Below the pieces are notes generated by a model. It ran no database searches. It saw only the letters and a program-made list of their open reading frames with translations, and was not told where the DNA came from. A DNA stretch of 64,000 bases from Owenia fusiformis (taxonomy: Eukaryota; Annelida; Polychaeta; Sabellida; Oweniidae). The DNA is taken from assembly GCA_903813345.2 (NCBI GenBank), contig CAIIXF020000004.1:30881986-30945985 (forward strand), in the 5' to 3' direction. Below, in pieces: positions 8,186-40,062 of the stretch (within the stretch, counting starts at the first letter, position 1; every line of letters begins with the position of its first letter). Position numbers and translations under genes: made by a program.

Positions 8186-8189
8186 TATC

Positions 8190-17660: not shown

Positions 17661-18626
17661 TTGTGTTTTATACATGTAGTCGGAAGTCGGTGGTGTCAAT
17701 ATTGATGTCATAAAAGATAGAAAGATTGTCGATGACATCAAAATAAGTCGATTCCAAGTGATCTTTCAGGATCAACCCTTCGAACTAAAACTTTTTGTAT
17801 TTCATATAATAAAAATATCCTACTTACCTTACTCCCTCTGATGTATATAATCCAAAACTGAAACTGTCCAACTTTAAAACCAGGCACGTAAGTCGTAAAC
17901 TATATCAGGCATACAAGTCCACGTCAATAAAATACTCTACGCTATTAATGATCCTGGATATAATAACTCATATAAAATCTATAAGCCTTTAATTTCTTTC
18001 AAAAAATCCAGTAGTCCTTTCATTTGTATATATTCGTTTATTCGTATACGTATAAAAGATCATATAGCAGTGGATTATCCGTCGTCGCTAATCTCTTAAA
18101 GCAACATCATCGCAGACTAGCAAGTACAGTGGAACCTTTATATCAGAACGCCCCTCTAGTCCGATTTTCTCTCAATAGGAACATTTTTTGGTCCAGATTT
18201 AGTTGTTTCTCATTGATTCACATGTTTATAAAGTCCTGAATATGAACACGTGTTAATCTAGGCCTTCTTGGGCGGTTCTATGGGTGTTTGGATTATACAT
18301 GTTTTTCTGTATTTGAATATTTAACTCGCCTTATCGAGCGATTTTTGTGTACCAAGTACACTACAAATACAGATCAATTTGACATCAATATTTCAACAAT
18401 GAAAAAATTCGAGTAAATGACATTCACAAATAACATTCCCATTCGCACGTATTGTATTACCATAAGTGCTTTATATTGAATGTGTCTAGTGGCAAACGGA
18501 CCTTTTAAGTGTGATGAGATCTGGACGAGTATTTGGTTTGGACTCAACCCGGCGATTCAACACTCTTAAATCGCCATACCTTCGGAAGTTTGTTACTCTC
18601 TCATGTGTCGTGTCAAGTCTGTTGAT
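17661..18626. other. Non-coding flank left of the large transposon
   Basis: No gene seen. It ends in GTTGAT (18621-18626), the target duplication of the adjacent element. Confidence 0.5.
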
Positions 18627-18648
18627 TACGAAGCTTTAAAAGGGACAT
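18627..18648 (+). repeat. Left terminal inverted repeat
   Basis: Perfect 22-bp match to the reverse complement of 40035-40056. It is preceded by the GTTGAT duplication at 18621-18626. Confidence 0.93.
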
Positions 18649-19170
18649 TTTTTCATTTCTATTTTTGAAAATCATAATTAACTTTTAAAAACTCACAAAA
18701 TACTTATTGAAAATTTAAAAACTTTAATAAAAATAAAAATAGTTTTTTAAAATCATAATTAACTTATAAAAACTCACATAATACTTATTGAAAATTTAAA
18801 AACTTAAATAAAAATGTAAATAGTTTTTTAAAATCATAAATAACTTTTGAAAACTCGCAAAACACTTATTTAAAATTCAAAAACTTTAATAAAAATTGAA
18901 GTAACTTTTGTAATTTGAAAATTTAATTTTTTAATTTCAAAATATATATAAAAAAATTAAATAAATTGATTTAAAAATCAATTTAAAGATTTAAAAACAC
19001 TTTTAGAAAATCCTTAAAACTTTAGACTCTATTTTAGGATTTCAAAAATCAAATATGTAAATGTAAAATGATTTATAGAAATTATAATAATTTTTTAGAA
19101 ATATTTTTGCAATTTTTTTTTGCAAAACTGATTTTGGAAATTCATAAGTCAGTTCAGATTTTTAGATAAG
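18649..19170. repeat. Left subterminal repeats of the large transposon
   Basis: Three 81-bp units (phrase AAAATCATAA at 18668, 18749, 18830), followed by further A/T-rich decay. The phrase CTCACAAAATACTTATTGAA matches the reverse complement of the right arm around 39840 and 39960. Subterminal repeat arrays of this kind are typical transposase-binding regions; that function here is inference. Confidence 0.8.
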
Positions 19171-19209
19171 TCTGAAATTTTTTAAAAGTCTTCTGTAAAG
19201 GAAAACTTT

Positions 19210-19271
19210 ATGTGGCGTGTCACGGTTGAAATTAACGGAAGTGAAGGAAGCGGGAATTGTCAAGCAGAAAA
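19210..19271 (+). other. Candidate 5' exon of the HECT gene
   Basis: The acceptor before 22598 needs an upstream exon, and the left transposon end limits the search to about 4 kb. A strong donor (GAAAA|GTGAGT) lies at 19271/19272, preceded by an ATG at 19210 with an open frame (MWRVTVEINGSEGSGNCQAE). Joined to 22598 this frame would not continue into the zinc ribbon, so it would act as an upstream ORF or a 5' leader. Confidence 0.3.
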
Positions 19272-19850
19272 GTGAGTATATGTAGGCCTAGTTGTCTATA
19301 CAAGTGGACTATCTTTTATATATTTTACCTTTGTAAGGCAATCTGTTTGTTCAAAATAACGTAGATGTTGCACTTTACAGATAAACCATTCAAAAGCCAG
19401 ACATGACGTGAACCACGTGTGCATCACCCCCCCTCAGACCGGCCTGGACAAAAATTCATTCAAAATCATGCAGTTTTTCAACAATTTAGAACTCAGTTCA
19501 AGTGATTTTTGGCCAAAGTTGATCACCCTGATTTTTTTTAATGGGATGGTTAGCTAGAGCAGGGGTTTCACTGACTGAATACTAGACACAGGGCCAGGGC
19601 TCCTAGCCTGGGGTGTTCACTGTATATAAACCTTGACGGGGGGGATCCTCGGCTCATGTGGGGTCCCTTTTTTGACATTTGGTATGGCAATGGACCCAAT
19701 TTTTAGGATCTGGAATGAGAATGCCCCCTAAATTATGATTTGAGGTATGGCAATGGTCAGATTTTTCCACTCCTGGTATGAGAATGGTCATGGAAAATAC
19801 ATTGCCTCTCACTTGTGTATGGCATTGGTCTAGTAGTTACACATATCCTT

Positions 19851-20592
19851 AATTATCCCAACGAACGAAGTTCTGTAGGGATATAGTGAAGCCCTCCGTC
19901 TGTCAGTCCGTCCGTCCGTCCGTCCGGAAGATAACTCAAATACCAGTTGACGGATTTTCTTCATATTTGGTGGAACGATGTATATTGGTGAATAGTTTTA
20001 CCCAAAAAAAAATTTTCCATGATGGCCGCCGCTTTAAAAATGACTAGACTTTTTCGTAAAAATCATGAATTTTTCATTCGAAACCAAAGTAATAAATATT
20101 TTTGTTTGAAATTTTGGTAGTATATTCACAACATCTATTTATTTCACATATATTCCTTGTTTTTCATGCTGACCCCCTGGGGCCGTGTATGGGGGGTCAG
20201 GAAAACAGAAATATTCGTTAATTTTGAGGTATTTCTGAAGTATAGCTTTATTATACTCAAATGAAAGGCAATTTAGAGTTGATTGTATCTTTTTTCAGAT
20301 TCAGACCTCGTGAAATTCAAAATGGCCGCCTAATGTTGGATTTCGCAATAATTTTGCGATCCCTTCAAAGTATGCCTATATTATACTCAAATTGAAGGAA
20401 TTTTAGAGTAGATCACAATTATGGTATTATTTTTCAGATTTGTACCTCAGAAAATTCAAAATGGCTGCCTTTCAGGAATTCGCAATCATAAAATCTAAAT
20501 TTTTCAATTCTATGACTGATTGGAATTAATTTGGTAATTGATATATTGTTCGTTGGGATTTGCTACTTCGCGGAGTTGCAGTTTTCTAGTTT
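19851..20592 (+). mobile_element. Nested repeat, AATTATCCC...TTTTCTAGTTT family (copy 1)
   Basis: Starts AATTATCCCAACGAACGAAG, has a CCGTCCGTCCGTCC microsatellite, then AGATAACTCAAATACC, and ends GGGATTTGCTACTTCGCGGA..TTTTCTAGTTT. Two other copies with the same ends lie inside the same transposon (29368-29564 and 33911-34586). The ends carry a short inversion (CCCAACGAACG against CGTTGGG). It is non-coding. Confidence 0.7.
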
Positions 20593-21057
20593 GAGGTTGT
20601 TTTGGATCGTTTTCCTCAAAGATCTGCCTTCTTCTCGGGGCTTTAGACATTTTAAATGGCCTTAGTCTTACATCTGGACATGTGGTATGGCAATGGTCTT
20701 ATATTTGGACATTTGGTGTGCTTTGGGGCATTATTTTTGTCAGTATGGGAACACATTGAAATTTAACAGATTGGTATGGGAACATATTGATCATATTTGA
20801 GGGTTCAGCCTAGGAACCCGCTGAATTTTGTATACAGTGAACCTCCCGGGCCTAGGGCACTCCCCCCAGTTTTCCGTGAGTTAAAATACTGAATTCTGCA
20901 AGTGAAATTAGTGAATTCTGCAAAGAAAAAAGCCAATTCTGCTGGAATTCTTCGGGGTTCCTCTGAGTTTTTTTTGTGAAAAATAAGACATGGATAATAG
21001 GCTAAGAGTTAATGACCCGCTATCAAACATGTGAGAAATGAAAGTACCAGATCTTCG

Positions 21058-21058
<1 letters not shown>

Positions 21059-21089
<31 letters not shown>
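21059..21089. repeat. Poly-A run
   Basis: About 30 consecutive A flanked by short direct repeats of AGATCTTCGA (about 21050-21058 and 21090-21099). This resembles a slippage-expanded tract or the tail of a short retroposed sequence. Confidence 0.6.
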
Positions 21090-21091
<2 letters not shown>

Positions 21092-22597
21092 TCTTCGATC
21101 GTTTTCATTGCAAATTCAGTTTAAAATCAACACGTAATCGCGTGGCGTTATATGTGGCACGATCACAGGAATTGTAAATCTTATCCAAATATGACATTGG
21201 GTCTGAAAAAAGAATGTCTGATTGAATATTTTCCAAAATATTTTGTCTTGCGTTGCCTTTGCCTATAGACACATTTCACCATGCAGCATATCAGTGCACC
21301 AGTAGGTGTTACCCCAGGACCGGGTGAATATCATACTGGTGACCTATACACAACAAATGCGTTATTGTTGATTATTTCATGCACTGCTGTCATGTAAAAA
21401 TACTCTGTTCGGATTGGCTGGAATCTGACACACTTTGCCTAGCTATGTGTGAATTGATGATTAAGTGAGTTGAATGAATTGATATAATTTACCGGTGATT
21501 AGGCAAAATTTACATTTGCCATGTAAAGTATAATTGACTGGCTATGATGACAATGTACCATATATTTTGAAATGACCAATGACATTTATACTTTAATTTA
21601 TGGTACTAATACATGCTTGGAAGGATGTACCATTCTCGGTAGTTTAGAAAATACATCACTAATAAAATGCATTTTGGGGTTCCTGAAGGGTAAATACAAC
21701 ATATACAATTTTAAATTACCAATTTTTATTCACATTTTCTAAAATACTAGTAAACATGCAGTATAAGCAGCATAGGCCTGGAAGCATGCATAAAAATAGA
21801 GTAGAATACACCATGACCATGCAGTAAAGCTTTGTTACGTAACCAATTATCACACTCAAGTAAGATTGAGTCTGATCGACCCTTTGTTCAACTTTTGTGC
21901 ATACTGTATACACATTAATTAAATTTTACACAGACCATCATTAGCTTTAATTCACAAACAAATACCGTGAATTAATACAAACTCCCTCCATTTTGAATTC
22001 TATCTGGACCTGCAGCCATCTTGTTTTGGCAATACCATGGATGCCAATTACGACCAATTACATTTGAATTTCGAATGATTTAGGGTTTTACTGATACCAG
22101 AAGTTAAATCAATCATTTAGATGATTGCCGGTAAAATTGTAAATGTGGCTAGAATCTAATAAAGCCGTTTATTTAATTTGGTAAATCCCAATCTGGAAGT
22201 TCAGGATTTTCCATGACACAAATAAGAAACTTTATCTCCAATGACATTTAAACTTTAAATTAGCTCGATTTGTGACAACCACATCTGCTGACATTATTTT
22301 ATTTTAAGATATTAAACCGTTTGAATTAAAACGTCCAGAATAAGTGATTAAATTTGCAAAGTTTTTCACGATTTCAATCGGGGGCCCCCTCAGATTTCGA
22401 AACAGGGTTTTCTCGTCTATGGTCCTAAATAATGCAAAGAAATAGTGAGCATATTCGCATATATGTGGAAATGTGATTAGAAATAGGTAAATTGTGCATG
22501 CTGCAATTATCCTACGGGAGCCCCATCATGCATTTTATTGGTGATGTATTTTCTAAACTACCACTATTCTCAGATTAATGAAATTTTTGTTTTACAG

Positions 22598-22717
22598 ACA
22601 TGTTTTGCACTGGCTGTGGGAAACCAGCTGTGGGAAACTTTTGCTGTCACTGTGGTGTAAAATGCCAACCAACACCAAATACCAGTCCAGGCACTAGTAG
22701 TGGTAGTGTGTCTTCAG
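22598..22717 (+). CDS. HECT gene, first coding exon (zinc ribbon)
   Basis: Acceptor TTTTACAG ends at 22597; the first ATG follows two bases later; the donor is TCAG|GTATTT. It encodes a C-x2-C...C-x2-C zinc ribbon, then a Ser/Thr/Gly-rich linker. It leaves one base of the next codon, matching the exon at 25927. Confidence 0.8.
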
Positions 22718-25700
22718 GTATTTATTATTTATTTGGATATACAGGTACACTGTACACTTTTAACAGTAGCACTTTTATAATTTGTATAGAAGTATTTGTT
22801 TATAATCAATGTCAAATGAGTGTATTATTTTGCACCATTCACCAGTTTGGAGTAATTGGGGGTTTGGGTACTTTGAACCATCTTTGCTCAAGTACTTTTT
22901 AAATGGCTGTGTACTCTGTGTAATTATTTACCATAATTAAACTAATGGAGTATTAGTTTCACATTATGCTGCACTGGAATTACCCAGATGCAAGTAGGTA
23001 GTAATAACTAGTAACCAGTTTCACCACCAGGTGGCTAATTCGGCGTAAATAGCATGGCAGGTATAGCAGAAAGTGCCCTTAAACTTAAATATCCATCTGT
23101 TCTGGTCGAATAATTTTCATATAACCCTTATGTATCTGATAGTTATACAAATGAAAAAAATGTCAAGTAAAGCAAAATATTATCTGTCCACTATCTGTCC
23201 ACTAAATGAAAAGACATCATTCACTTTTTGTGATTTTATAACATGGGCTCTATGGGGAATCTCCCCGACCTAGAAGTCACATTTTCAAAGAAAATTAAAT
23301 TTTGAAAGTTGATTAACTGTTTTTGTTACCACATGTAGATTTCAATATGGTATCACATCGACTGAATTTTGAATATTTAATGATGTAAATCAAGATTATT
23401 TCTACTTGCATGTAGGCTAATAGGTTACATGCTTCCGAAAGTGGACTAGTCATATTAACAAATACTGAATTACATGACTATTACATATTTTGCACCAGTA
23501 TGGAGTATTTAGGATTTTGAGTATGTACTTTAAATCTGTGTGTTTGAGATGTTTAAAATATATCACATTACACCTACTGATCAACATGTAAAGTGGTGTT
23601 ACATATATGTAATATTACCTGTACCATCTATGTTGTCTCCTTGTAGTAGAACTGGGACAAGGTAAATTCCTTTGTCTGTGTTTTGAATTCTTCTATCTTT
23701 GTTTGGACTTTTGTAATGCTTTTTAACTTATCCTAACTAACTTATGACCTATATTTAAATGTGCACATTGACTGAATCTATATCATATCCTTTGAAAAGA
23801 ACTAAATTCTATCTGAGTTATAATTTCATAAAATACCATAGCATCAATTCATAACTTTGATGTTCATTCTATAAAAACTTGGGCTCAACTGCCAGCTATT
23901 TGGCTTCTGTAGCATAGTTAGCCCTTTTTAAAAACGTGTATCCTTGAAATAACATAGCAATCAAGCAATTCCGCCCTTGCAATAGATTTTCTTACTTATT
24001 TATATTACATGTTAAATTCAAGAAATGTGCTCCAGCTATCTATTTATCAACATGCTGCAACAGCTGCTCTGAAATTGGGTTACATGCTTCCAAAAGTGAA
24101 CTGGTCATGTAAATTAATGTTAAATATTTGAATTATTTTGCACCAGTATGGAGTATTTAGGGTTCTGAGTATGTTTGAGATGTTTAAGAGATATAATCAG
24201 ATCTAGTGTTACATATTGAAAGGGAAACTGATCATGTAAATTGATGTGAAATATTTTGCACCAGTTCGGAACTTGAGGGTTGTGAGTACTTCAATTCACC
24301 ATCACTTAGATACTCTGTACATTGCCACACGCTCCAGATATGATAGATATCTGTTACCATCATAAGACTAATGATCATTGGTAACACATTAAACTGCTCT
24401 GAAATTAGATTACATGCTTCCAAAAGTGAACTGATCATGTAAACAAATGTTAAAATATGTGATCTATTTTGCACCAGTATGGAGTATTTAGGTTTCTGAG
24501 TGTTTACTTTAAATCATTTCATTTGAGATCTTTAAAATATATTACTGCTGTAATCAGGTAATAACTTGAACTGATTGTGCTATTACCAACATGTATATGT
24601 TTACAATATTACATCAATACTAGTTGATTTTCTAGCGAATATACCAATGGCTAATCTGATACAATCCTTCAACCCTATGATTTAAAAATTGTTATGCATA
24701 CCAAAGTGAACTGATCATGTATGTTTTAAATACAAGAAGTATTTTGCACCAGTTTGGAGTATTCAAGGTTGCGAGTACTTTAAATTGCTTAAGAGGTCAG
24801 GTCAATGTTTCAGTGTGCGTCAAAAAACGTAATTAATTATGTAAGGGGGGAGGGTGTAAATCCCTGTTATGACACCACCAAAAAGTGTTGACATATTGTT
24901 ATGGTCTCCGTTTTTTTGTGATGGCGGTTGGTGGTTGGAGTCTGTAACAGATTCTTACAACTTCCAATAACTTAACAAATACTGTTTAGACTGACTTAAA
25001 TTGTTTTCTAAATCATATACAAGTTCTCAGAAGTTCAAATCTGACTTTAGATTTGAGATTTGACCTTCAATAAAGTTCTTAATGTCAAAAAGGTCTTTTT
25101 TTAACTTGCTTCAAAATTTCAAAGTCATCTACAAGACCTCAGAAGCTCAAATCTGACTTAAGATTTCAGATTTGACCTTCAATGACCTTCCCAAGGTCAA
25201 AACGGTCTTTTTTCAACTTGCTTTAAATTAACCAATTTTTTAGGTGGTGACATTTTGCCATGTTAATGCCTTGTTTAATTAGGTGACAGACATTGATTTC
25301 AGAGTTTCATCTTCTGCAATGGTATGATCATTTAATATACAACAGATATGATAGAGAATTTGATATGTGTTTATAGCAGAAGCAGATATTGTGTGCTGGG
25401 GTTGTACTTGTACACTGCATGCAAATCAACATTTTGATTCTTTAACACTGTACACGAAACAACATTTTGACTTTTGTGAGAAGGGGGAGGGGGGTTAAAA
25501 CCTTGCTAAATCAATTACGTTTTTTGACGAACAGTGAAATATTGACCTAACCCAACAACACTATTTACATGGCCAAGTGCTCCTGCTATTTACTTAATAT
25601 CAATCAAATAAAGAGAATAAGTAAAACATTATGCTGCACTTGAATTAGGTTACAAGCATCCAAAAGTGAACTGGTCATGAACATTAATGTTTTATACTTG

Positions 25701-28700
25701 AATTATTTTGCACCAATAAGTTTGGAGTATTTAGGGTTCTGAGGGTCAGTACTTTAAATCACCATTACTTGTGAAAGTGAACTGATCATGTAAATTAATG
25801 TTTAATTCATGGGTCATTGTCCCCTAACCGTCCCCATAGTATTCATAACTAGTAAAGAATAAATGACCTTTAATAAAGCTAAAATAAGTTATTCTTTGTG
25901 GTAAAAGTATGTATCCTACTTTCCAGATGATAGGCGACAAAAGTTGCTGAAGATGATGATGAGCAGCACACAATCCAAAACTGAAAAAATGGGAAGACCG
26001 TTGAAAAGTTCGAGAGTGGTACAGTTTGGTCTTTATGTAGCCTCCGCATCAGAAAAGTCAAAGCTTACATTAGTGAAGTCTCCATTAGGAGATAAAAACT
26101 TTATTCAGCTAACTTGTGGAACACAAGACTCTTACCATGATATTCTTCAACAGGTGAAAGCTGCATTATTTCCCAAGGGTCTAAATATAATGATTGGAAA
26201 TGTAAACTGTTATAATCTAACACTGACAGACATTACTGGGCGAAGTGTAGAGGATGCAGTGGATGGTGTTTTTTCATTACGAAAATATCTGGATGCTAAA
26301 TTAATACCAGGACAGATAAGACTTTTTTGCAAGTGTATTCCAGTGAATGATGAAGAAAGTGACAGTGACAGCAATAGTGATATTGAAGTGATGAAGACTC
26401 GCTACCCATTCAGGTAATTAATATTCTATAAATAACAACATACAAGGTGATCCAGAAGTAATGTCACTACTAGACCAATCTTCTTGAAACTTGGCACAGA
26501 TGTTCCCCAAACATTATTTAGTTAATACCTCAAGATTAAAGCTTCTACTATTTGATTGGTTCTGGACTTGATAATTCAATATAATTATCTATTTATTTCA
26601 TTTTACCATGGGAATCTAATGTCAGTGATTCAATGTAGGATCATATATAATCTCAGACAATATTTAGTCAATTATTTTATTTTCTGAGAAAGCACCACAG
26701 TAGCAATTACATGACTGGGATAGATGATTCTTACAGCCTTCACTGGGAAAATGCCCTAGGACATAAGGCCATCCTCATAACCAAAAGCTCAGTGGAATCA
26801 GTTTTCAAACTTCTGATGAAGGAAATATGTCATGGGAGCAATCCAAGAAATGAGGAATGAGGCATTTTAAACGTGGAATGCTTCACTCCATATCCTTCAG
26901 AATTTAAAGAGTACCACCTCCCTGATCAAAACTACATGGATAAAATTAATGCCAATGCAGATTCCCTCTAAAATAGTCATTTTTTCCATGGGGAATTCAG
27001 ATGAGACTCTTCATTAATATTAAGTCTCAAAAGAGACATAACAGAGTGATTTGCAGGGGTGGATCTTGAATTTGACAATTTTAGTGCTAAATTAGATTTT
27101 CCCAATTTTTGAAAATTAAATTGAGGTGCAAAGAAGACACTTAGAATGGTATAAAACAAAGAATAGTACCCTAACATCAAAGAATATGAGAATTGGTATA
27201 AAAATGACACCTCTTTAAATTTTCATTTTAGCTCAGCAATGACTGATGAAGAGGATCTCAATGGTTCGAGTGCAGACATTACGACATCGTAAGTACATAC
27301 ATGCACTATATGCGCATGCAGTATCAAAAGTAATAATCCATACTTAGAACTCCATATGTCTAAATGCTCTAACTGCCTGAATACATATTTGCCTTTTTCT
27401 TTTATTGTTATACCAATTTTTCAGACATTTACAGAAAAGAATGTTTTTAGTCACCGCCAAAAAGACTTGAACACATAATATTGTGAGCAACAAGGTGGTG
27501 ACATTTTGTCATGTTAATGCCTTGTTAGAACTTGATGGTGCAATTTTGAGAGAATATTGTGAAAAGTTTCAGTTAATTTTGGTGTTTTCAGTTCAGGTGT
27601 ATATTGTGTTACAGGCTGAGCCACTTTATTATTATGGGATGGAGTAAGATCAACTAGAAAAATCTGTAATCCAATGCAAATTTCCACATTTAGCCAGTCA
27701 TCTTACAGTTTACAAAGCATGCCCAAAAGTAATCAGGTCTAGAATAATAAACCCAGAACCATTGGTAAAAAGTATTAATTAATTTTAGTTTACCTGTAGA
27801 TATGTTAACAAAACGTGGCAGAAAATATTTAAGCATTTGTTTGAATTTTCAGGAAAGGGGATACCATCAGAAAGACAGTTGAAGCTGCCAGTGAAATACA
27901 GTAAGTTCATTAGAAAGCATTGTTATCTAACAGAAATAGTTAGGAGCAAAGATTTGAATAAGATTTTAAAAGTAATCGGTCCATTCAATCGTACAGTATT
28001 TGATCCATCCAATTTTTGTCCATTTATCCCAGAAGCACTCATTGGCATAGATTGCACCCTCAAAACCAGGTTTGCTGCTCTCCAAATTTACCTTTGCAAA
28101 AAACCATGTCATCTTTATATGAAAACAGGGTCCAATCTTGAATTCTGGGATTTTTCGACTTTCCCCTGCGTGCAGAGTCTTGTTATAAATTCCAAAGACA
28201 AAGCTCTCTTTTAAGAGGCGAAGTCGAACAAATGCAAAGGGGACTCCTCTTCCATTATCTAATGTAGAAATAGAGACAGAATGAGTATAAGGGGTCTTCT
28301 AACTCTGCCTATTTTAGACCACTCATAATAAGTACTATTTCATATTTGTTTAATGTCTTGGTAGATAACACAAACAATTTTCTGATTAAGCGATTCTTTT
28401 ATATTTTATGGCCTGGAATAGCCTCGAACCCTGGTCTGTGATACGAAAATCTAATAAGGGACTAGCAAACCTGGGTTTGACTGTTAACCTCCTGTTCATT
28501 GTGGTATGGATTACGAATGCAGTTTTGCACAGGTGTCAACAGAAACAAACAGTAAACCTGGTTTCCTGAAGCTGGGTTTACTGGATTTGCCAAGCACATC
28601 TTCGACTCTCTCAGTTATCCAGCCATAATGTGTACATCTCTTGATTAGAAAGATTTTTAAAAAATGAAACAGTTGTAGAAAAGCTGTTATTTAATGAAGC

Positions 28701-31700
28701 ATTTGTTGAATTTTCAGGAATGAGGATACCATCAGAAAGGCAGTTGAAGGTGCCAGTGATATACAGTAAGTTCATTCAGTGTCATTAGAAAGTATTATTT
28801 AGGAGTGAACCTCTCAACAGGACCCTCATATGAATCTTCACTTAAAACAAATCCACAAATACATGTATTCTGATGAGTGGCAGTAGGTTTATGATGAGCA
28901 TTACCTTAGATTAACCCACATATACATACATGTACAGGCCCGTAGCCAGGATTTGCCAAAGGGGGGGGGTTGCTTTTTAAAAATTCAAGGGGGGTTCACT
29001 TTTGACAACTTTGGCCCAAAAATGCCCAAAATCACTTGAAAAGTGCTCAGAATGGTGAACCAAAAATGTAATTTCAGTATGGATTTAGCAAACCTAGACT
29101 TAACCAAAAAAGGTCCCCTTATAGGCTTGGTACTGAAAACAATTTGAAAGATACAACATTATACAAGCATTTCGAACAACATTGTATTGTAACTGTCTTA
29201 TATTAGACAGTTAGAGTCTTATAAGAATACTATACAATACAATCAGTAACATTTATAACTTTTTACCTTGTAGGATGGACTATTGCCTTTCAAAAGAAGA
29301 GATGGAGGATTTTATATTCAACATGTAAGTAGAGCAGACTTCCTTTAAAGACAGAAATATATTTGGTAATTATCCCACCGAACAAAGTTCGAGGGGATAT
29401 AGGAAAGCCGTCTGTCCGTCCGTCCATCTGTTTGTCCAGGAGATAACTCAAATACTGGTTGATGCATGGGGATAAGGGAGCTCTGTTCAAGAGGGCTGCT
29501 ATTTATCGAGACATGTTTTGTTTGGTGGGATTTGCTACTCGGTGAAGTTGCTGTTTTCTAGTTTGTATATTTGAGGAAATAAAGCCCCACAGAGCAAGAA
29601 TGACCATGGATTTTGTGTTTTGTATATTTAATATACAGTATGATCACAAAACCATGATTCTCATTTAAACATAAAAAGATGAACATATTGGAGCTTTTCA
29701 GAGGCATAGCCAGGATCTTAAATTTGACGAGGCAAATTTTATTTGGCGAGGCAAATTTGAGGCACTAGCGAAATAACACTATAAAGATAAAAAGAGTTCA
29801 TTTTCACAACTTCAATTCAAAACAAATGTCTGAATTGATATTTTTCTATTAAATTTTGGCGAGGCAGTTGCCTCACCTGCCTTATGCCTGGCTAGTAGTG
29901 GCTATGGCCATGGTTTCACAATGAGGTTAGTGTTTATCAGGTTGACAGTATAGGGCATAAAAATGGCAGTAGTTCCCATCATTTACATCTATAGGAGTTA
30001 AGTGAATGTGCTTTCAGTCAAGGTGAGATTAAAATCCAATAACCCATATTTAGGCAGCATTTCGAGAAGACCATTATATCACTTTTGGCTGACAAAACAA
30101 GCCCATGGGATTGACTATACATTGATTGGTCAGTCATTCTATCAACATTGTTGATTTTTTAAATAAAATTTAATTTAATTTAATGATTTTAGATTTGACC
30201 TTCAATGACCTTCTCTAGGTCAAAAAAGGTCAAAAAGGTCTTTTTTCAACTTGCTTCAAATTGACTAAATTTTGTTTTCAAAATCAGCATTTGACTAAAT
30301 TTTGTTTTCAAAATCATCTACAAGATCTCAGAAGCTCAAATCTGATTTAAGATTTTAGATCTGACCTTCATTGACCTTCTCAAGGGCAAAAAGGCCTTCC
30401 AACTTGTTTTAAATTTACCAAATTTTTTTAGGTGGTCACATTTTGTCATGTTAATGCCTTGTGTATAACTTATGAAGCGTTTGATTACGTCATCATTTAC
30501 ATGAATTGCGCAGGTCTGTAAGTACATAGTGTGATATTCTTATAAATCGTTGTCTATGTAAGAATATCACACTTATGGACGTATAGAGCTGCCCAATAAA
30601 TGATGACATAATAAAACGCATCAAAAGTTATACGTTATTTGGGAATAATAAACATGCTATAAGTGAGTTGCAAAATCTCTTTAATAACATTCAATAATGC
30701 TTTATTTCAGGAAAAATGAAATAAATCCAGTGATTGTGTTGAAATCGTACCGTATCATGATTCTCAAGGGAGATGAAATGAACAATATGGATGACAATGG
30801 ATTCGATAGAGGCAAAGAGACAGATGCTCTAATATGTGTGACTAGATTGACTGGAGATGATGGGAAAATCATTTTTGATGATTTTGATGAGCAAGTGCGA
30901 ACATGGCCTCCTACACACTTTAGGCAGAGAATAGAGGTGATGTACGATGGTGAAAATGCCAAAGATCTTGGTGGGCCACGTCGAGAACTTCTTACAGATT
31001 TAATAAGGTAATATTCTCTCAATAGATATAATGTATGTGTAACTTGGAGCAAGTGAAAATATTATGAAGGAATTAATATTGTAACCTTTGCAAGATTTTT
31101 CATAAGGGGTTGGATTTTCATTCTTAAAATCTCGTCTGAAAAGTCTTGTCTGTATGTTTCAAGCCAAACCATTTGACCTAAATTTTTTAGCTCAATTATT
31201 TATTGAAAGTCTAGTAATGATTAGTTTTTGGTCATTCTGAGTAAATGTTAATATAGCCATTTTGGACTTTTCATTCCAAAAACTGTCTATTCTATTCAAG
31301 AGTGCAGTATTGTTTTCCTAGTGTCTTGTTTCTTTTTGCTACTGTATAATATTTTTTATGATATCTGATTTTCATTCAGTTTCAATGCAGATATAAAATT
31401 GGTCAAACAAAAAGCTGTATGTATGAATGTCCCTCCAAGAAAATCTTGGATTAAGATGTATATGGGAGGTGAGACCAGTACAAGTTATGTTCCCAGACTA
31501 TTTTGTTTGTTTTGGGTTTTCTGAAAAACAACAGTGGATTGAGCATACTGTAATATAGAATTAGATAATGTAATATTTAAAGGTTTTACTGAGACTTGAT
31601 TTCAACAAAATAGAAAATGGGCTGCCAAATTCCCCATCTATGTAGCAATCAAGTGAGTTAAATTCCCCATCCTGGTTACAATAATAGCTGGTCAAATATA

Positions 31701-33777
31701 GTTGAAATACATGAAATACCCAGGAGGAATTCACATTTCAGAAGTTCCTACTCCCAGGAAACAGTATGATGGCAGTATCCCACCTCCTTGGATGCTACTG
31801 TGATAATTTTCTACCCTTTTGTGGGGTGTCTCATGCAAACATTTGAATGGTACATAATGCATTATTTAAACTTATTGAAGATTCACGAAGATAAATTATT
31901 GCAGGTACATCAAAGGCGATGATTCACCATTCCTAAATGTGATCAACAATGAGTGCTGGATCAGTACTAGTGAAAGAGAACACATAGGATATTTTGCTGC
32001 TGGTGTTGCTGTTGGTGAGTAGCTGTCTAAACTAATATTAGGCCTATGGGCTCTTTAATTTTTGCTTCTAAAGTTAATTATCCCATCCAGTGCTTGCCTT
32101 AAGGACTAATCCGTTGTCAGACATTTTGGCTGGACATAATTTTTTTCACCAGGCATTTTCAAATTTCCAAAGACATTTTAAATGGAAAAACTTTTCTAAA
32201 AACGTTTTAGAGTATTGACTTCCGCTTCAAAATAAGTTGAATAGTTTTCGTCATTTCGTCACTCTGATCTTTGATATGAAGTAGCCTTTGTACTTTCCAT
32301 TAGATTCAAATGAAAGCTAAAAATATGTAGGGGTCATAAATGTTTTCTTTGAAGAAAATAAATGAAATATTTTTTTTAATTTAAGCTATGGCATTGCTTT
32401 TTGAGGGACCACCTGTCAACTTCCTGGCAGAGGGGCAGATGGATAGACTCTTAAATAAGGAAAGCTTAGAACTAAATGGAGGAGAGCGAGAGTTTTCAAG
32501 AGGAATGAACATGTATGGTGTGCTTGAGGTAAATATATATTTAAACCCAACAAAGTTCAGAGAGAGTACCCATCAATCCATTTATTTGAGTACCCATCAA
32601 TCCATCTATTTTTTCATCTACATGTATTTGTGTGTTTGTGCAATAATTCAGGAACTTGTTCTCAAAAATGTTAAAACGGCAGCATCTGTAGCTAGACTTT
32701 GATTACAATGTCAGATGGGTTTTCTGAGAATCGTAAGGATATATTACAATATGGTTGCATGCACTTGTAGCATAAGATAAAAACTTTTCTTACAAATCCA
32801 AATGTTATATTAATTTGCCACTTGCATTCATTGAAACCTCTAACTGTACTTCAATCATTTTGTTTTAGCTTGTAAGGAAGAAGCCCGTTATGCGGTATCT
32901 GCTTCGCCCAGGAACCCAGGCAGTCATGACAATGCGCAAGTTGAAGAGTCTCGTAAAACCTGTGTTTTCCGAAGCGGGAACCAACAGTAAAATAAAAGAA
33001 GAGAAAATATTTCGAATGTTCAACAAATACTTAATAGAAGTACAGCGTAAATAACAATTTTTGATAATTATCTTCTATTTTTCATTTTTATGTCAGCACC
33101 CAAAGTGATGACATATTGTTATGGTCTCCAACTTTTTTGTGGATGGTGTTCGGTGGTTGGTGTTCAGTGTTCGGCAGTTTGTGTCTATCACAAATAGCTG
33201 AATGGCAGGTGGTGACATTTTGCATGTTAATGCCTTGTTGTACATGCAAGCGCAAGTAATGCTAATTAGAAGTATAAAACACTAAGTCTGACTTACATCT
33301 TCTGATTACAGTATATGGAATAAATATAAGTGCTTTAAAGAGGTCTCGTTTAAACAAAATTATCAAAGTGTCCTCTATTTATCAATACAGGTTAACTGTA
33401 CTCACTCAATTATTTACTTTATTTGCTTTTCACATAATATTGCTACTACTAGTATAGTAACTTATGAATTACAAGTAAGTCTCTTTTGGAATGAAAATAA
33501 ACATGTGTTTCACTTTTCATATTTTGTATTTTCAGATGGCAACAGGCCAGTTGATATCCCAATGATACTTAAATTCATAACAGGCTCTGAAACGGAACCC
33601 ATAACAGGGTTCGACCCGGGATTAACCATTGAATTCTATGACAACAATGATGATATCCCAACATCTTCTACATGCACAAATACTTTCCGCCTTCCATATT
33701 ATGATGGGATCAAACAAGATAGTGTATTTGCAAAATTTGATTATGCATTTAGTAATAAGTACTTTGGCAAACATTAA
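22600..33777 (+). CDS. Zinc-ribbon/HECT-domain E3 ubiquitin ligase (transposon cargo)
   Basis: Reconstructed coding segments: 22600-22717, 25927-26413, 27232-27288, 27853-27900, 28718-28765, 29274-29324, 30711-31007, 31380-31457, 31905-32014, 32386-32528, 32869-33046, 33536-33777. All junctions keep phase; the total is 1857 nt (618 aa), or 602 aa if only one of the two 48-nt exons is used. The N-terminus is a zinc ribbon (FCTGCG then FCCHCG, residues 2-18). A roughly 150-residue unrecognised region with an acidic SDSDSNSD tail follows. The HECT fold comes next: GGPRREL in the N-lobe, GYFAAGVAVAMALLFEGPPV, and the C-lobe with TSSTCTNTFRLP, whose Cys (33673-33675) lies 33 residues from the end as in active HECT ligases. 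The nearest family by memory is the G2/M-phase-specific E3 ligase-like group. Weak point: the donor at 31457 (AT|GTATAT) was chosen by phase. A non-coding first exon must lie upstream of 22597. Confidence 0.85.
24796..25559. mobile_element. Nested element with about 45-bp inverted ends
   Basis: The left end AGGTCAATGTTTCAGTGTGC, then GTCAAAAAACGTAATTAATT, is the near-reverse-complement of 25505-25553 (CAATTACGTTTTTTGACG, then AACAGTGAAATATTGACCT). The interior contains a second element (24868-25274), so one element has inserted into another. Confidence 0.65.
24868..25274 (+). mobile_element. Nested GTGGTGACA-family element (copy 1)
   Basis: Begins TATGACACCACCAAAAAGTG, then ACATATTGTTATGGTCTCC, and ends GGTGGTGACATTTTGCCATG, then TTAATGCCTTGTT. 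The core holds two tandem sections built on TTTGACCTTCAATGACCTTC. Other copies: 27448-27526 (short), 30191-30463 (partial), 33089-33239 (short) and 36603-37130 (minus, longest). Confidence 0.7.
25927..26413 (+). CDS. HECT gene exon, central region of unknown fold
   Basis: Acceptor TTTCCAG, donor TTCAG|GTAATT. It completes a codon left by the first exon and encodes a basic start (RRQKLLKMMM), then a compact alpha/beta-looking region from VQFGLYVASA to IRLFCKCIPV, and the acidic SDSDSNSD stretch. I do not recognise the domain; it may be a substrate-binding module. Confidence 0.8.
27853..27900 (+). CDS. HECT gene 48-nt exon, duplicate A
   Basis: Acceptor TTTTCAG, donor ATACA|GTAAGT. In the phase set by its neighbours it reads KGDTIRKTVEAASEI. 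Its partner at 28718-28765 has the same length, phase and flanks. The longer open frame running through it (27837-28214) is out of phase with the protein and is not real. Confidence 0.75.
28718..28765 (+). CDS. HECT gene 48-nt exon, duplicate B
   Basis: Acceptor TTTTCAG, donor ATACA|GTAAGTTCATT, identical in form to duplicate A; it reads NEDTIRKAVEGASDI. It may be used together with A or as a mutually exclusive alternative; both choices keep frame. Confidence 0.75.
28935..29060 (+). repeat. GGCCCGTAGCCAGG-type repeat fragment
   Basis: Starts CAGGCCCGTAGCCAGGATTT followed by a G run and TTTGGCCCAAAAATGCCC. It is related to the more complete element at 41578-41783 and to 19415-19510. Confidence 0.55.
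29368..29564 (+). mobile_element. Nested AATTATCCC family element (copy 2, short)
   Basis: Same ends as 19851-20592 (AATTATCCCACCGAAC, CCGTCCGTCC, GGAGATAACTCAAATAC, GGGATTTGCTACTCGG, TTTTCTAGTTT), but the interior is largely deleted. Confidence 0.7.
29699..29915. mobile_element. Small inverted-repeat element (GGCATAGCCAGGAT)
   Basis: The left end AGAGGCATAGCCAGGATCTT and the right end GCCTGGCTAGTAGTGGCTAT form a rough inversion around GGCGAGGCAAATTT repeats. It is non-coding. Confidence 0.45.
30191..30463 (+). mobile_element. GTGGTGACA-family element (partial copy)
   Basis: Carries the AGATTTGACCTTCAATGACC core twice and the terminal GGTGGTCACATTTTGTCATG, but lacks the usual left end. Confidence 0.6.
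30711..31007 (+). CDS. HECT gene exon, N-lobe with GGPRREL motif
   Basis: Acceptor TTTATTTCAG, donor AATAAG|GTAATA. It encodes the start of the HECT N-lobe, including VMYDGENAKDLGGPRRELL, the strongly conserved loop before the first long helix of HECT domains. The minus-strand open frame over it is a shadow. Confidence 0.85.
33089..33239 (+). mobile_element. GTGGTGACA-family element (internally deleted copy)
   Basis: Both ends are present (TATGTCAGCACCCAAAGTG, ACATATTGTTATGGTCTCC; GGTGGTGACATTTTGCATG, TTAATGCCTTGTT), with the central core lost. It sits in the last intron of the HECT gene. Confidence 0.65.
33536..33777 (+). CDS. HECT gene last exon, catalytic C-lobe
   Basis: Acceptor TTTTCAG. 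It continues the codon split at 33046 and reads ILKFITGSETEPITGF, then TSSTCTNTFRLPYY with the catalytic Cys at 33673-33675, and ends in TAA. This matches HECT C-lobe layout. A possible polyadenylation signal AATAAA lies downstream at 34765-34770. Confidence 0.88.
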
Positions 33778-33910
33778 AAGTCTTGTCTACATACTGTACA
33801 TGTTTCCTGGCGCACTGTCAGGATTTACATTTTTTAGTGGACATTGCCTGAAGCTTAAGATTTCTTTAGCATTAGCATTTTAAAGCTATCATCTGAGAAT
33901 TCATTTCTCT

Positions 33911-34586: not shown

Positions 34587-34927
34587 GATGATTAGTTTGA
34601 AGGCAAAGGAGACTGCAGACGCTTCTATAACATAGTGGATTAAAATGGGGCTGTTTTGTGAATAGTGGACAGTGGAGGGTACAGTGAATATGTGTCAGGC
34701 ATAGTGTCAAAAAGATTTAACATGAGAGAGCACTGACTATGACGTAATATTATTCTTGTGGTCTAATAAAGTTGACTATGGAGTAGTTCTACAGTGTAAA
34801 TAGGAGAGCTTTGGGTCCAGTCTCACACAATCTCATTAGAACTCCAGCAAAATTGAAACAGTTGATGACCAAACATTGTTAATTTGTGTATTTTCTTAAA
34901 ATAGGATATATTTGGATGACGTTCATC

Positions 34928-35541
34928 ATGTACAAGGGTGACGCAAAAAATGACACCCACCTTATGCTGCATAATTTATTTGTCCATTACCATATAGACT
35001 TGTCCTTTAGCACATTTGAAGTAGACATAATGCGTAAGCACCTCGAGAAATTTCAGATATGTAGCTCAAGTGGTTTAAATTTTATGAGCATTACAATAAA
35101 TTCTCACTTTGGAGACTTTCTCATTAGCCGCAGATCTGAGATTGAGTGGGCACCCCATTCCCCTGATATTAACCCACCAAATTTTTACCTCGGGGTATTT
35201 AAAGGACCATATGTATGAGACAAAACATCCCCAAAACAGCTGACTTAAAGAGAGAAATTACAAGGAAGATCAGGGCCATATCTCAATGTGTAAGGGTAAT
35301 CAACAACTTTGCCTGTAGAATTCATGTTCGCCTACAAAGGAATGTACGTCATATATGTCATATGGAACAAATCTTGTAACGCTCATAAAATTTGATCCAT
35401 TTGAGCTACACATCTGAAATGTCTTGAGGTCTTTACACATTATGTCTTCTTTAAATGTGCTAAATGACAAGTCTGTATGACCATAGACCAACAAGTTATG
35501 CAACGAAAGGTGGGTGTCATTTTTTTTTGAGTCGCCCTGTA
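34928..35541. mobile_element. Decayed mariner/Tc1-like element with long inverted arms
   Basis: The ends TACAAGGGTGACGCAAAAAA and the inverse of GAGTCGCCCTGTA match mariner-type TACAGGGTG termini. About 170-bp arms are inverted copies of each other. A plus-strand remnant reads WAPHSPDINPPNFYL, like the SPDLNPxDF block near the end of mariner-family transposases, then hits a stop. It is broken and non-autonomous. Confidence 0.65.
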
Positions 35542-36602
35542 TTTATCATTCCTAAGAAGAGAAATGCAATCAAAATTGTGACATATGTTATTGACTATGA
35601 ATACTCAAATGTGATTGCTATTTTTATAGCTAAAATGGATGCATGTCCAACACATTGTGGGACCACTTGTAGTCTGATTCTGAAAGCTTTTTAAAAATAT
35701 TTATTTAGTCATGATCAATATACCTATAGCATTAGCTTGCCTATGAAAAAGGTACTTGAGAAAGTTTGTTTTAAGATATTTTTAAGTGTTCCTGTACAGT
35801 ACTTAGTATTAACAATTAGACGATTCTATACAAACTTTGATTACTAAATTTTGATGACTGTATGAGAGCTGTTATTAGGTATATCATATACATTCCTGAA
35901 TAATTTAAGATGTTGATTATTGTTGCTATGGATTGTGTGATGTAATACTACTAGATGCTGAAAATGTGAATTTACATGTAAGTGTGAATTGTGGATAGAA
36001 TGTGGAGATTTCTGTAAGTTGTATTGCCAATTAAGAAATCGGTTCAGTACTTGATTTGTGCATAATTTAAGCTGAAGTTTATCTGTTGTAAATTGATTGC
36101 TGTTACATCATGTTAAGAATTACTCTTCGAAGCATGTAAAATATTGCCAATATTTTGAACATGCCAAACATCATTATACCATGTCATTTTTATACCATAT
36201 TTAGAAAGAATGAAGCAAATTTTCTTTAAATCTCTGATTTATAATTGTAAACTAGAGTATCTGACACTTGTATCAAAATAACAAGTACTTTTTAGTTTAT
36301 AAGTTAAATTTCTTAAGATGCATTCATTATCCCAAAGAACGAAGAAGAACAATATTTGCAGTTGCAAAGAATTAAATAATGATGTTACTTTTTAAGGAAT
36401 ACTGAGTCCTAGTGCATCTTGGTGTGTATAATTCAGAAATACCTTATTCTGTGTAATATTAGTTATGAGAAATATAATGAGATACTAAAATGCTAAGTGT
36501 TTTTATTTCATTTTATTTGTCCCACAAGTATAATGGCATATTGTACAGGGTGGCCACAGTGGAAAAGTAAAACTCCAGTGCATCCCAATAGACTGGAATA
36601 AG
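35542..36602. other. Spacer between the two convergent genes
   Basis: AT-rich; no gene recognised. It probably contains the 3' ends of one or both convergent transcripts. Confidence 0.4.
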
Positions 36603-37130
36603 AACAAGGCATTAACATGACAAAATGTCACCACCTAAAACAATTTGGTCAATTGAAAGCACGTCAAACCTTAAATCTAAAGTCTGATTTGAACTTCAGA
36701 AAACTTGTAGATGATTTTGAAAAAAAAATTGTGCAATTTGAAGCAGAGTAAAAAAGACCGTTTTGACCTTGAGAAGGTCATTAAAGGTCAAATCGTAAAT
36801 CTAAAGTCAGATTTGAATTCCTGAGAACTTGTAGATGATTTGGAAAAAAATTTTGTCAATTTGAAGCAAGTTGAAAAAAGACCTTTTTGACCTTTTTTTG
36901 TTGATCTTGAGAAGGTCATTGAAGGTCAAATCTCATATTTTAAGTCAGATATGCACTTCTAAGACCTTGTAGATGCTTCAGAAAAAAATTGAAGTCAGTC
37001 TAAACAGTATTTGTAAAGTTATTGAAAGTTGTAAGAATTTGTTACAGACCAGATACCAGACACCAACCGCCGTAACAAAAAACAGACCACGAGACCATAA
37101 CAATATGTCACCACTTTTGGTGGTGACATA
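36603..37130 (-). mobile_element. GTGGTGACA-family element (longest copy)
   Basis: Read on the minus strand it starts TATGTCACCACCAAAAGTGG and ends GTCATGTTAATGCCTTGTT, with three tandem core sections (TTTGACCTTCAATGACCTTC). The CCACC/GGTGG phrases near each end give imperfect terminal inversion. Confidence 0.7.
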
Positions 37131-37605
37131 AAAACTGGAAATGAATGAACATTATCAATATATTCAATACGATTATTATCCCACCGAAAGAGGAGCTCAT
37201 GTTATGCAAGGAAAGGTGTCCAATTCCAGCTAATTACACAGTATTTCATATAATTGCATTGCATAATACTAGTCTAATGCACCCAAAGTCATTTTTTATA
37301 ACATCCATTTAACAATTTCAAATTGGCTGTTCACTCACTCACCTCTTGTATTTTCAACAAAAAAACAGATGGATGCACTGACATAGAAATGAAAGAATTG
37401 CAATTCAAAGTAGGAGTTAGCCATTTGGTGATATTTTGAAAAAACCCTTGCACCGACAAACTACCTGAAAACTTCCAACCACTTGAAAAATCATTACAAT
37501 TAACAGCTTTACGACCAAATTATACAGAATTGTAAAACATCAACACTTCAGGCTTGATTCAAAAAATCTGAAAGCCTACTGATGTGAATAAGCTTATTCA
37601 ATGGA

Positions 37606-39473
37606 TTATTGTTGCAGTTCATGATTAATTTTATCTAACAGAAAAACCAGCAACTCTCTTGCCTCCTCTAATGTGTTAGGGGTTGATTTTCCACTTTCCT
37701 CCATAAGCATTTGGAATAATTCTTTGAAGTGTTCCTTGTTAGTTTCTACAACACAAGTATTGTCAGATTCTAACTGAGCAAATATTTCTTGGTCAATCTT
37801 TTGCAACACATCCTTATGTCCAAATTCTTCAGGGGCAAAGTACAGAATATCTGGTTTCCCATTAACTGAACTGACAGATTTTGATTTTTGAATATGGTGT
37901 GTATTCCACATTCTTTGCGTTGTGTCAAGTTCTCTTTGCAGTAGATCCATGTAACAATATCTCATACACTCAATGTCTAGTATGTTTGAATTGTCAATAA
38001 TGCCAACATCTAACAGCTGGCGGCAGTGAGATATCCACATTGCTGCTCCATATATTGGAAATTTACTCCAGAAACTTTCTATTCTCTGGTTTGCAGTTGA
38101 TTTTCCATACAGAAATGCAACTTTACATGAACAGTCATCATTTACAGAGCGTAGAACAGTTTGAAGCAGTTCAACCTTGACATTCTCAGTCCCCCGATCT
38201 GCGCGAACAATCTTTGGAATACCATTTACATTTTTAACACAATCGCAAAAGTATTTGCAAATTAACATAGAGTTTTTATTTGAAGATCCTGCTTTGAGCC
38301 ACAATATTCTTCTACTGAATCCATCCAAGCATCCATGGACAGTTAAACCATATGGAGTTAGTTTATCCCAGCCATCAATATGCCATATATAGTTGCTCCC
38401 TTCAGATGTATATTGTCGCCTTTGTAAGCGTCTCGTTGATCGTTTGTGTACACCTTCTGGGTCAAGAACTGAGAGCAAACGGCGAATTGTTTCATGATCT
38501 GTTTTCAGCCTGCAATTCACAAAAGCTGTCATACTTTATTTTATGCCAGAAAAAGGGGAGATAAAATAGTGAAATACAGTATAATGGTAAAGAACTTTAT
38601 GAGTATCTTATTGGGCGGGATGACAGGTACAAAACTGAGTTGACGGGAACAACTGAATTGATGGGTAACAGAAAATGAAACAACAGCACTCTGAGGTGAC
38701 ATATACCAGAAAATGAGATGACGAGGACCAAAAAGGGGAAAATACATGTACTGAGATTAAGATACGACACAACTTTTTTAACTTATGCCACAAGTGGCAA
38801 CGGTTTCAAACGTCATGATGACATCTTTTTAATAATTGAGTTTGCCTTCAATGAAAACTAAGCGACAGGTACAGGTACTGAGATGACCTAGGTAACATGT
38901 ATTGAGTACTGGTGTATGTTGAACTGACTTGATGGGCAGCATACAGTAGGTATTTTCAAGAAAAGTATTCAGTTGACGGCAGAATAGTTGCTGGCCTTAA
39001 AGTGATCTGATTGGCGGAATCACATTCCAGCCTATGCCTTCCCATACATGTACCTCATAAATGTGGGGCTGATTTTTCAAATCCAATCTCCACAATTTTA
39101 CAATCGGGATTCGGGGTACCAGATACTATTCTCGATTCCGGAATCAGGACATTGATACTTCCCCGATGGTAAAATTGTGGAGATTGATCAATCAATTGAC
39201 TTACCCATGGACTTTTGTGATTTTGCCATGCATACTCCGGTATCCCATTGCTGACCCACTGCCATGATCTATCTCTTGAATGATAGCGTCAGCAACTGTG
39301 CCAATGGCAGTTTTATCGAATTTTCTTGAGAGCCCCATCTTCTTTAAATCCCTCTTGATCTGTCTCTCCGAAAGTGTAATTCCATGACGGAACTTTAACA
39401 ACATGCCGATCTCCTTGTACGTAAAACCGTCTTCAAAGTATGTGGCTATACATTCATCTCGATCTGACTCCAT
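37606..39473 (-). CDS. DDE integrase-type transposase, two exons
   Basis: Exon 1 is 39473-39205 and exon 2 is 38509-37606 (donor GG|GTAAGT, acceptor TTGCAG|G); together 1173 nt, 390 aa, phase-matched and uninterrupted. The N-terminus has a helix-turn-helix-like region (YFEDGFTYKEIGMLLKF, residues 12-28). The catalytic core carries WHIDGWDKL, then RADRGTEN 59 residues after the first Asp, then NQRIESFW 40 residues after the second, giving a D-D-E triad in integrase order. GMPD-like text typical of LTR integrases and their H2C2 zinc finger are absent, so this is not a retroelement pol fragment. It would cut and join the ends of the surrounding 21.4-kb element. The gene starts about 0.58 kb inside the right end and converges on the HECT gene. 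Confidence 0.88.
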
Positions 39474-39529
39474 TTCTTCTTCGATTATAAGTCATGACAC
39501 GCCGCATCTAGATTCTACAAAATCTCCTT

Positions 39530-40034
39530 TACAGAAGACTTTTGTAAAATTAAAATACTTATGCATTTTCAATATTAGTTTTGTAAAATTATTTTTTATT
39601 TTGCAAAATTATTTTTATAATTCTATACTTTTGGAAAATTATTTTGAAAATAATATTTTGAATTGCAAAAGTCCCATCGTATTTTATAAAACTATTTTTA
39701 AAATCTGTAAACTAATTTGATTTCTTTAAAGTAATCTAGGTATTTTTCCATAAATATAAAAAATAAATAAATTGAAAAATGAATTTCGAAATTACAAAAA
39801 TCAAATCCTGTTTCATTCAAGTTTTTAGATTTTAGATAAGTATTTTGTGAATTTTTATAAGTTTTTTAGATTTAAAACAGAAAAATCGATTTTTCATTTA
39901 ATATTTTGATATATTACAAAACTAAAATTGTGTTTTATTAAAGTTTTTAGATTTTATATAAGTACTTTGTGAATTTTTATAAGTTTTTTTGAGATTTGAA
40001 AAATTAAAATTGATTTTTTTTTAATTTGAAAAAT
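39530..40034. repeat. Right subterminal repeats of the large transposon
   Basis: A/T-rich sequence with repeated phrases AAGTTTTTAGATTTTA (39820 and 39939) and GTGAATTTTTATAAGTTTTT, which match the left subterminal units in inverse orientation. It also likely contains the transposase promoter. Confidence 0.78.
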
Positions 40035-40056
40035 ATGTCCCTTTTAAAGCTTCGTA
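40035..40056 (-). repeat. Right terminal inverted repeat
   Basis: Perfect reverse complement of 18627-18648, followed directly by GTTGAT (40057-40062). Confidence 0.93.
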
Positions 40057-40062
40057 GTTGAT

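Follow-up and report, generated by a model that had tools for sequence, protein, structure and literature searches.

A 64,000-bp stretch of the genome of the annelid Owenia fusiformis (assembly GCA_903813345.2, contig CAIIXF020000004.1, positions 30,881,986–30,945,985 of the forward strand; hereafter the window, whose own coordinates are used unless stated) was analyzed. Positions 18627–40056 very probably represent one copy of an autonomous DNA transposon of about 22 kb that belongs to the IS3EU (IS3EU/GingerRoot) kind. Recent insertion of the element as a whole unit, with a 6-bp and once a 7-bp target duplication, is evident at 16 places in the assembly, and all 17 copies recognized carry a cargo gene that encodes a predicted HECT ubiquitin ligase. 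IS3EU elements and the presence of accessory genes in them were already known; the Owenia element is a young, multi-copy giant of this type, with an intact transposase and a HECT gene in every copy.

The left 22-bp terminal inverted repeat, TACGAAGCTTTAAAAGGGACAT, begins with TAC and occupies 18627–18648 on the plus strand, and its exact reverse complement, ending in GTA, is present at 40035–40056 on the minus strand. The sequence GTTGAT stands directly outside both ends (18621–18626 and 40057–40062) as a target-site duplication and encloses an element of 21,430 bp. A search for the 22-mer with up to three mismatches returned just these two positions within the window, and no match was obtained in 100 dinucleotide shuffles. 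The perfect inverted ends and duplication described in an earlier note on this DNA were thereby confirmed to the base. The outermost 385 bp of both ends could be aligned in inverted orientation with gaps (68%, E = 1.6e-28), and a further inverted 27-bp match (92.6%) was located approximately 505–576 bp from the ends, at 19176–19202 and 39525–39551. Since the inverted relatedness continues past the 22 bp, the two repeats can be taken as belonging to the same element, one at each end. The subterminal regions (18649–19202 on the left, which contains 81-bp tandem repeats, and 39525–40034 on the right) are AT-rich and inversely related to each other, in agreement with the matching subterminal repeats that had been noticed before.

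Screening of the Owenia fusiformis assembly with a 160-bp left-end probe revealed 17 near-identical left ends (97–100%), each accompanied by a right end 16.8–37.3 kb away. The same probe also matched C9 at a decayed end (92%), C134 at a solitary right-end-like piece, and C7 weakly. Short derivatives with these left ends were not found among the probe matches listed, and short elements with the same ends may occur as extra copies. Both 22-bp ends were perfect in 16 of the 17 copies, and 15 possessed their own perfect 6-bp duplication; the copy C5 is flanked by 7 bp (CTCCTAT on both sides), while the ends and duplication of C6 are worn. The duplications of the copies all differ in sequence. Copy lengths ranged from 16,786 to 37,345 bp, with C6 at approximately 34.9 kb. 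The window copy and seven others were wholly read, save for 185 bp in one of the seven; the nine read at their ends and exon matches include the longest copy (37.3 kb).

The earlier note had considered that the two ends might come from separate short miniature inverted-repeat transposable elements (MITEs) standing 21 kb apart, and the ends do share the AT-rich, repetitive character common in MITE ends. This reading has practically no chance of being correct, since the ends are paired in 17 copies, with matching outer duplications in 16 of them, and the eight copies compared have nearly identical interiors. The same 17 two-ended copies and their near-identical interiors settle the question of a second copy, which had been left as a way to refute the note, and bear out its claim of an element of approximately 21.4 kb that moved recently.

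Sequence divergence among the eight wholly read copies is very low. Pairwise mismatch was 0.02–0.10% over 16–22 kb where the left tandem repeats were in register. Higher values (0.19–0.30%) were obtained for the C11 pair against the others except C5, and this excess was attributed to 81-bp tandem repeats that are out of register within the left 420 bp. The variable columns totaled 79, of which 33 within the left 420 bp were dropped and 46 retained. Among the retained columns, 43 were private to one copy and three common to the C11 pair, a distribution that indicates a star-like burst. Two of the 46 fall within exons (2,748 of approximately 22,000 bp), from which no claim on selection is drawn. 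Approximately five private changes per copy correspond to 0.02–0.03%; at an assumed mutation rate of 2–5 x 10^-9 per site and year, the burst would be of the order of 50,000–125,000 years old, or younger if assembly errors contribute. The near-identity of the copies thus points to a very recent burst.

At seven of the 16 sites, empty sites were sought by joining the flanks minus one copy of the duplication, and 40 of 158 candidates were scored. The whole 300-bp joined site of the C512 insertion was matched at 15 places with 91–100% (one without the last base), which indicates that the element inserted into one member of a repeat whose remaining members are uninterrupted. The joined site of C2a gave one junction-crossing match (86%) and that of C11a gave five (78–82%). 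A weak base preference could also be seen across the 16 insertion sites, with C at position −8 in nine, T at −7 in ten, and G as the initial duplicated base in nine, as counts without a significance test.

The transposase is predicted to be an intact two-exon DDE enzyme of 390 amino acids (aa), encoded on the minus strand. Exon 1 (39473–39205) contains a helix-turn-helix region and is present in all 17 copies. Exon 2 (38509–37606) contains the DDE core, with D135, D194, and E234, and has an open frame in 16 of the 17, the exon of C6 being split by approximately 10 kb. The intact integrase-type transposase that had been reported near one end is accordingly open, but made of two exons. Comparison with Pfam profiles revealed the rva_4 integrase core (PF24764) at E = 1.4e-32, above its cut-off, together with Clr5 (6.7e-5) and HTH_21 (1.7e-4) toward the N-terminus, while NCBIfam profiles of the IS3 family (1.5e-8) and the IS481 family (7e-5) also matched. 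A zinc-binding integrase (HHCC) domain was not among the profile matches listed. A database search with the exon-2 frame yielded 673 relatives; among the best 120 the closest was approximately 50% identical, and Patella, Lingula, Montipora, and Exaiptasia are among the sources named for them. When a tree was built with 35 of these homologues, the Owenia transposase formed a long branch within the half containing the Patella and Lingula sequences. No transposase relative could be confirmed in viral and prokaryote collections with the patterns used, and a profile search of the PDB returned 23 kinase chains and one integron recombinase at E values of at least 0.06, which were taken as chance matches.

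IS3EU/GingerRoot elements are marked by TA..TA termini, usually 6-bp duplications, and a DDE transposase related to bacterial IS3/IS481 that has no HHCC-type zinc domain (PMC10045372). The Owenia element shows the same features: TAC..GTA termini in 16 of the 17 copies, duplications that are perfect at 6 bp in 15, 7 bp in one and worn in one, and a DDE transposase with rva_4 above cut-off, IS3/IS481 kinship, and HHCC absent from the matches listed. The suggestion of an IS3EU affinity in the earlier note therefore agrees with termini, duplication length, and transposase profiles alike. The element differs from those described in its size of approximately 22 kb, its coding share of 13%, and its HECT-ligase gene. 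By the definitions in the same source, IS481EU was rejected, as it is expected to have TNT..AYA termini with duplications of approximately 4, 15, or 25 bp, and so were Ginger1 and Ginger2, which are expected to produce duplications of 4 bp, or 4–5 bp (PMC10045372).

Size and the 6-bp duplication would also fit a giant element of the Polinton/Maverick type, which shares the size range and an integrase-type enzyme and carries PolB, a protease, and a packaging ATPase (PMC6431247), none of which was seen in the Owenia element. The longest open stretch is the 309-aa transposase exon, so there is no unspliced PolB. In the stretches scanned with profiles, the integrase and HECT domains alone passed cut-offs and no DNA polymerase, ATPase, or capsid was detected; the rest was scanned by open-frame length, where a spliced gene is possible. 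As the transposase also matches rva_4, with weaker matches to IS3 and IS481, a Polinton identity is very improbable, and the placement with IS3EU is retained.

The cargo gene could be modeled as seven plus-strand exons with in-phase GT-AG junctions, encoding 524 aa. Exon 1 (22600–22717) contains two CxxC pairs and appears zinc-ribbon-like by eye; it is identical in the eight wholly read copies, as is the short exon 4 (31905–32014). Exon 2 (25927–26413) was found in 15 of the 17 copies and is missing in C2a and C10a. Exon 3 (30711–31007), where the HECT N-lobe starts, exon 5 (32386–32528), and exon 7 (33536–33777) are present in all 17, and exon 6 (32869–33046) in 16, C11a having a 2-bp gap. 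Exon 7 encodes the TC(T)N catalytic-cysteine motif and a phenylalanine four residues from the end. The catalytic cysteine and a phenylalanine near the C-terminus are needed in HECT ligases. The HECT domain (PF00632) was recognized at E = 1.5e-10, with the cysteine motif at 491 and the phenylalanine at 521, and the middle of the protein has no domain assignment; C491 and F521 are common to the model and its relative P0122. An annotated Owenia fusiformis protein, P0121, is 100% identical to the model over 307 of the 524 aa, within exon 3 through exon 7. The HECT exons of the seven other wholly read copies equal those of the window, except for the missing exon 2 of C2a, one mismatch in C5, and the gap in C11a. 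The "split" cargo gene of the earlier note is thus present, although divided by introns and not broken.

In the exon search, in which 43 of 125 first-look candidates were unscored and exons 1 and 4 lay outside the listed matches, all 82 scored matches fell within the 17 copies and no host relative was found. Homologue searches with the HECT protein returned just two proteins each, with no close host relative at this limited sensitivity, and the viral collection yielded no confirmed HECT relative with the patterns used.

Older relics provide a view of the association between the two genes. A decayed relic of approximately 2.5 kb on C9 (L052 342–2884, in C9:11978500–11982500), which may extend past the stretch examined, retains in element order a piece of the intron 1 region (87%), HECT exon 2, transposase exon 1 (95% at the DNA level), and an end. 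Its matching DNA pieces are 81–95% alike to the element; HECT exon 2 is 81–87% alike as DNA and 51–67% as protein, with a broken frame. The end sits at the right, yet it is closer to the left end of the element (81%) than to the right end (68%). Since parts of both genes are held in this relic, the partnership of transposase and HECT gene predates the burst. An integrase-like open frame of a retroelement was also noticed by eye within the relic. Two further relics, L050 and L051, contain an open frame of 113–127 aa resembling transposase exon 1 (52–59% identical), and L051 has a 29-column match (93%) to the element end approximately 200 bp from that frame. Neither showed an exon 2 match nearby or a notable HECT match in the 4.5–5 kb examined. 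The frames of the two relics run on into nearly the same further peptide.

These observations bear on whether the HECT gene is a host gene captured by chance, with no role in the element. The form without exon 2 at two sites, the 2-bp gap in exon 6 of one copy, and the lack of any report of a HECT gene with IS3EU in the literature searched (a Repbase entry may exist) would suit such a capture. Retention of exons 3, 5, and 7 in every copy, the C9 relic with HECT exon 2 already near transposase exon 1 and an end, and the lack of a close host relative within the limits of the searches described above speak against it, and we consider a chance capture unlikely, if by no means negligible. Our preferred view, held at about even odds, is that the HECT protein serves as an accessory factor with effects on the host or on the transposase.

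A deleted form of the element offers further information. C2a (duplication CATAAT) and C10a (GAGGTC) both lack HECT exon 2, and a 2,401-bp stretch of C10a over the deletion aligned to C2a without gaps at 99.9%, with the deletion junction in internal repeats. The two copies can thus be taken to share one deletion junction, and as this junction occurs at two different sites, the deleted derivative has probably moved again. If so, the copy that moves need not make the full HECT protein, which complete copies could supply, and a complete HECT gene is probably not required in the moving copy itself.

Coding sequence makes up 2,748 of the 21,430 bp (13%) in the gene models, and the remainder consists of introns, AT-rich ends, and older repeats. 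A probable nested MITE (21638–22562) has inverted ends of 94–100 bp (79%) and a flanking duplication matching at 8 of 9 bp. A piece at 28933–29059 is akin to one in the right flank (41668–41783) and falls inside the C2a deletion. Both the probable MITE and this piece lie in parts common to the wholly read copies and therefore travel with the element. An internal interspersed repeat is present at 24867–25277 (plus strand), where it holds one edge of the 5.3-kb C2a/C10a deletion, at 30172–30471 (plus strand) near the other edge, and inverted at 36603–37158 (minus strand). Relative to six of the seven other wholly read copies, the window copy lacks approximately 786 bp at about 30170–30183; the seventh, C2a, has 561 bp at that place beside a larger deletion. 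This missing segment is a correction to the earlier note's picture of the window copy as complete.

Length differences among the wholly read copies mostly result from later insertions. C512 has a copy-specific insertion of 6.4 kb and C12 one of 3.2 kb; both contain open frames that resemble long interspersed nuclear elements (LINEs) by eye, and these are flanked by overlaps of 12 and 8 bp. C3 carries insertions of 0.5, 1.7, and 3.4 kb and C5 of 1.2 and 6.7 kb, and the copy-specific extras also include MITE-like and repeat pieces. The 6.7-kb stretch of C5 comprises slightly more than three tandem repeats of a 2,081-bp unit, 100% identical to each other, and has a flanking overlap of 4 bp; it is either a tandem insertion or an assembly artefact. 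Exchange of cargo as the cause of the length differences was rejected for the eight wholly read copies, whose extras are copy-specific insertions; it may have occurred in the nine copies seen at their ends and exon matches.

A possible course of events can be outlined. The N-terminal helix-turn-helix region of the transposase would bind the ends and the AT-rich subterminal repeats, the two ends would be paired, and the DDE core would join them to the target with a 6-bp stagger. In this way the entire unit would move, along with its introns and passenger repeats, with the HECT protein probably acting in trans on a host restraint or on the transposase. The copies would then gain LINE-like, MITE-like, and other insertions as well as deletions near the internal repeats, and such later changes account for most length differences in the wholly read copies.

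Bacterial IS3 elements are among the families that copy out and paste in. Such a route through a circle, in place of cut-and-paste, must be weighed for the Owenia element, given the kinship of its transposase with IS3/IS481 and the presence of 17 long copies, among which a single form with a large internal deletion was recognized; the copy-out-paste-in pathway is described for certain insertion sequence (IS) families (PMC9587614). Junctions of abutted ends, as a circle would produce, were searched for in the assembly and none was found (0), which says little as circles are transient. A copy-out route is possible for the Owenia element, with the balance tilted against it.

Several points weigh against reading 18627–40056 as a recently mobile IS3EU element. 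The evidence comes from genome sequence. The number of copies derives from one assembly, through a search that scores best candidates only, and nine of the 17 copies were read just at their ends and exon matches, with a further 2.4 kb in C10a. At four of the seven sites (those of the window, C5, C12, and C3, with the scoring given above), the copy's own flanks were the sole entries among the empty-site matches listed. The HTH_21 score is under its cut-off, and the IS3 and IS481 scores are far under the family cut-offs, so that they indicate kinship and not membership. The IS3EU/GingerRoot placement was made by the published marks and by profiles, and the tree covers 35 database homologues. Gene conversion could have spread the C2a/C10a deletion without transposition, yet the sites and duplications of the two copies differ.

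Elsewhere in the window, a long terminal repeat (LTR) retrotransposon was found at 54061–57571, with a 994-aa open frame containing reverse transcriptase, RNase H, and integrase domains, which we interpret as Ty3-like; the start of its peptide is repeated at 54061 and 57901, which suggests flanking direct repeats. To the right of the element, plus-strand exons that encode SRCR and thrombospondin type 1 domains extend over 42431–63892 and belong to one or more host genes. Satellite arrays at 8188–9887, 14927–15712, and 51779–53870 have units of 100, 66, and 100 bp (92–97% matches). Between 58450 and 61218, open stretches with the same peptides recur every 1,260 bp in about two and a half tandem copies, and a 21-bp minisatellite (17019–17619) shows long open frames on both strands. 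Rfam returned no match at the gathering threshold.

Accessory genes have been described in other IS3EU elements. In fungal IS3EU elements bearing TET/JBP, the TET/JBP gene lies between the transposase and alpha-kinase genes; the latter two have opposite orientation, as do the transposase and HECT genes in Owenia, while the hosts are fungi and the accessory enzymes are a TET/JBP dioxygenase and an alpha-kinase (PMC12730594). Styx of Zymoseptoria is likewise thought to be IS3EU-derived, with extra coding sequences and recent reactivation; it is fungal and has four coding sequences, and a search of its description found no mention of HECT (PMC10853768). The TET/JBP elements and Styx show that accessory genes in this superfamily were already known. 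In the literature searched, work joining IS3EU and Owenia concerns KolobokP. The giant transposons named in a review are Polintons, Teratorn, Helitrons, and 16–20 kb En/Spm elements; the last, from Chondrus crispus, resemble the Owenia element as oversized eukaryotic DNA transposons and differ in superfamily and host (PMC6431247). The same review mentions a transposition penalty above 6 kb of cargo, to which artificial exceptions exist (PMC6431247).

It is conceivable, though we regard it as rather improbable, that the Owenia IS3EU element escapes this size penalty through IS3-like copy-out, paste-in transposition together with its own HECT ligase, which would remove a restraining host factor. 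If this were true, a 22-kb unit with seven eighths of its length outside its two known proteins would multiply as whole copies. With at least 16 well-bounded copies in one animal genome, near-identical in the eight compared, this DDE element of approximately 22 kb forms a natural system for the study of large-transposon movement, and the deletion shared by C2a and C10a allows the need for the ligase to be tested within the same genome. The element also lets one ask whether eukaryotic IS3 relatives copy out like bacterial ones, and its HECT ligase, alongside the fungal TET/JBP and alpha-kinase, raises the question of why IS3EU elements carry accessory genes.

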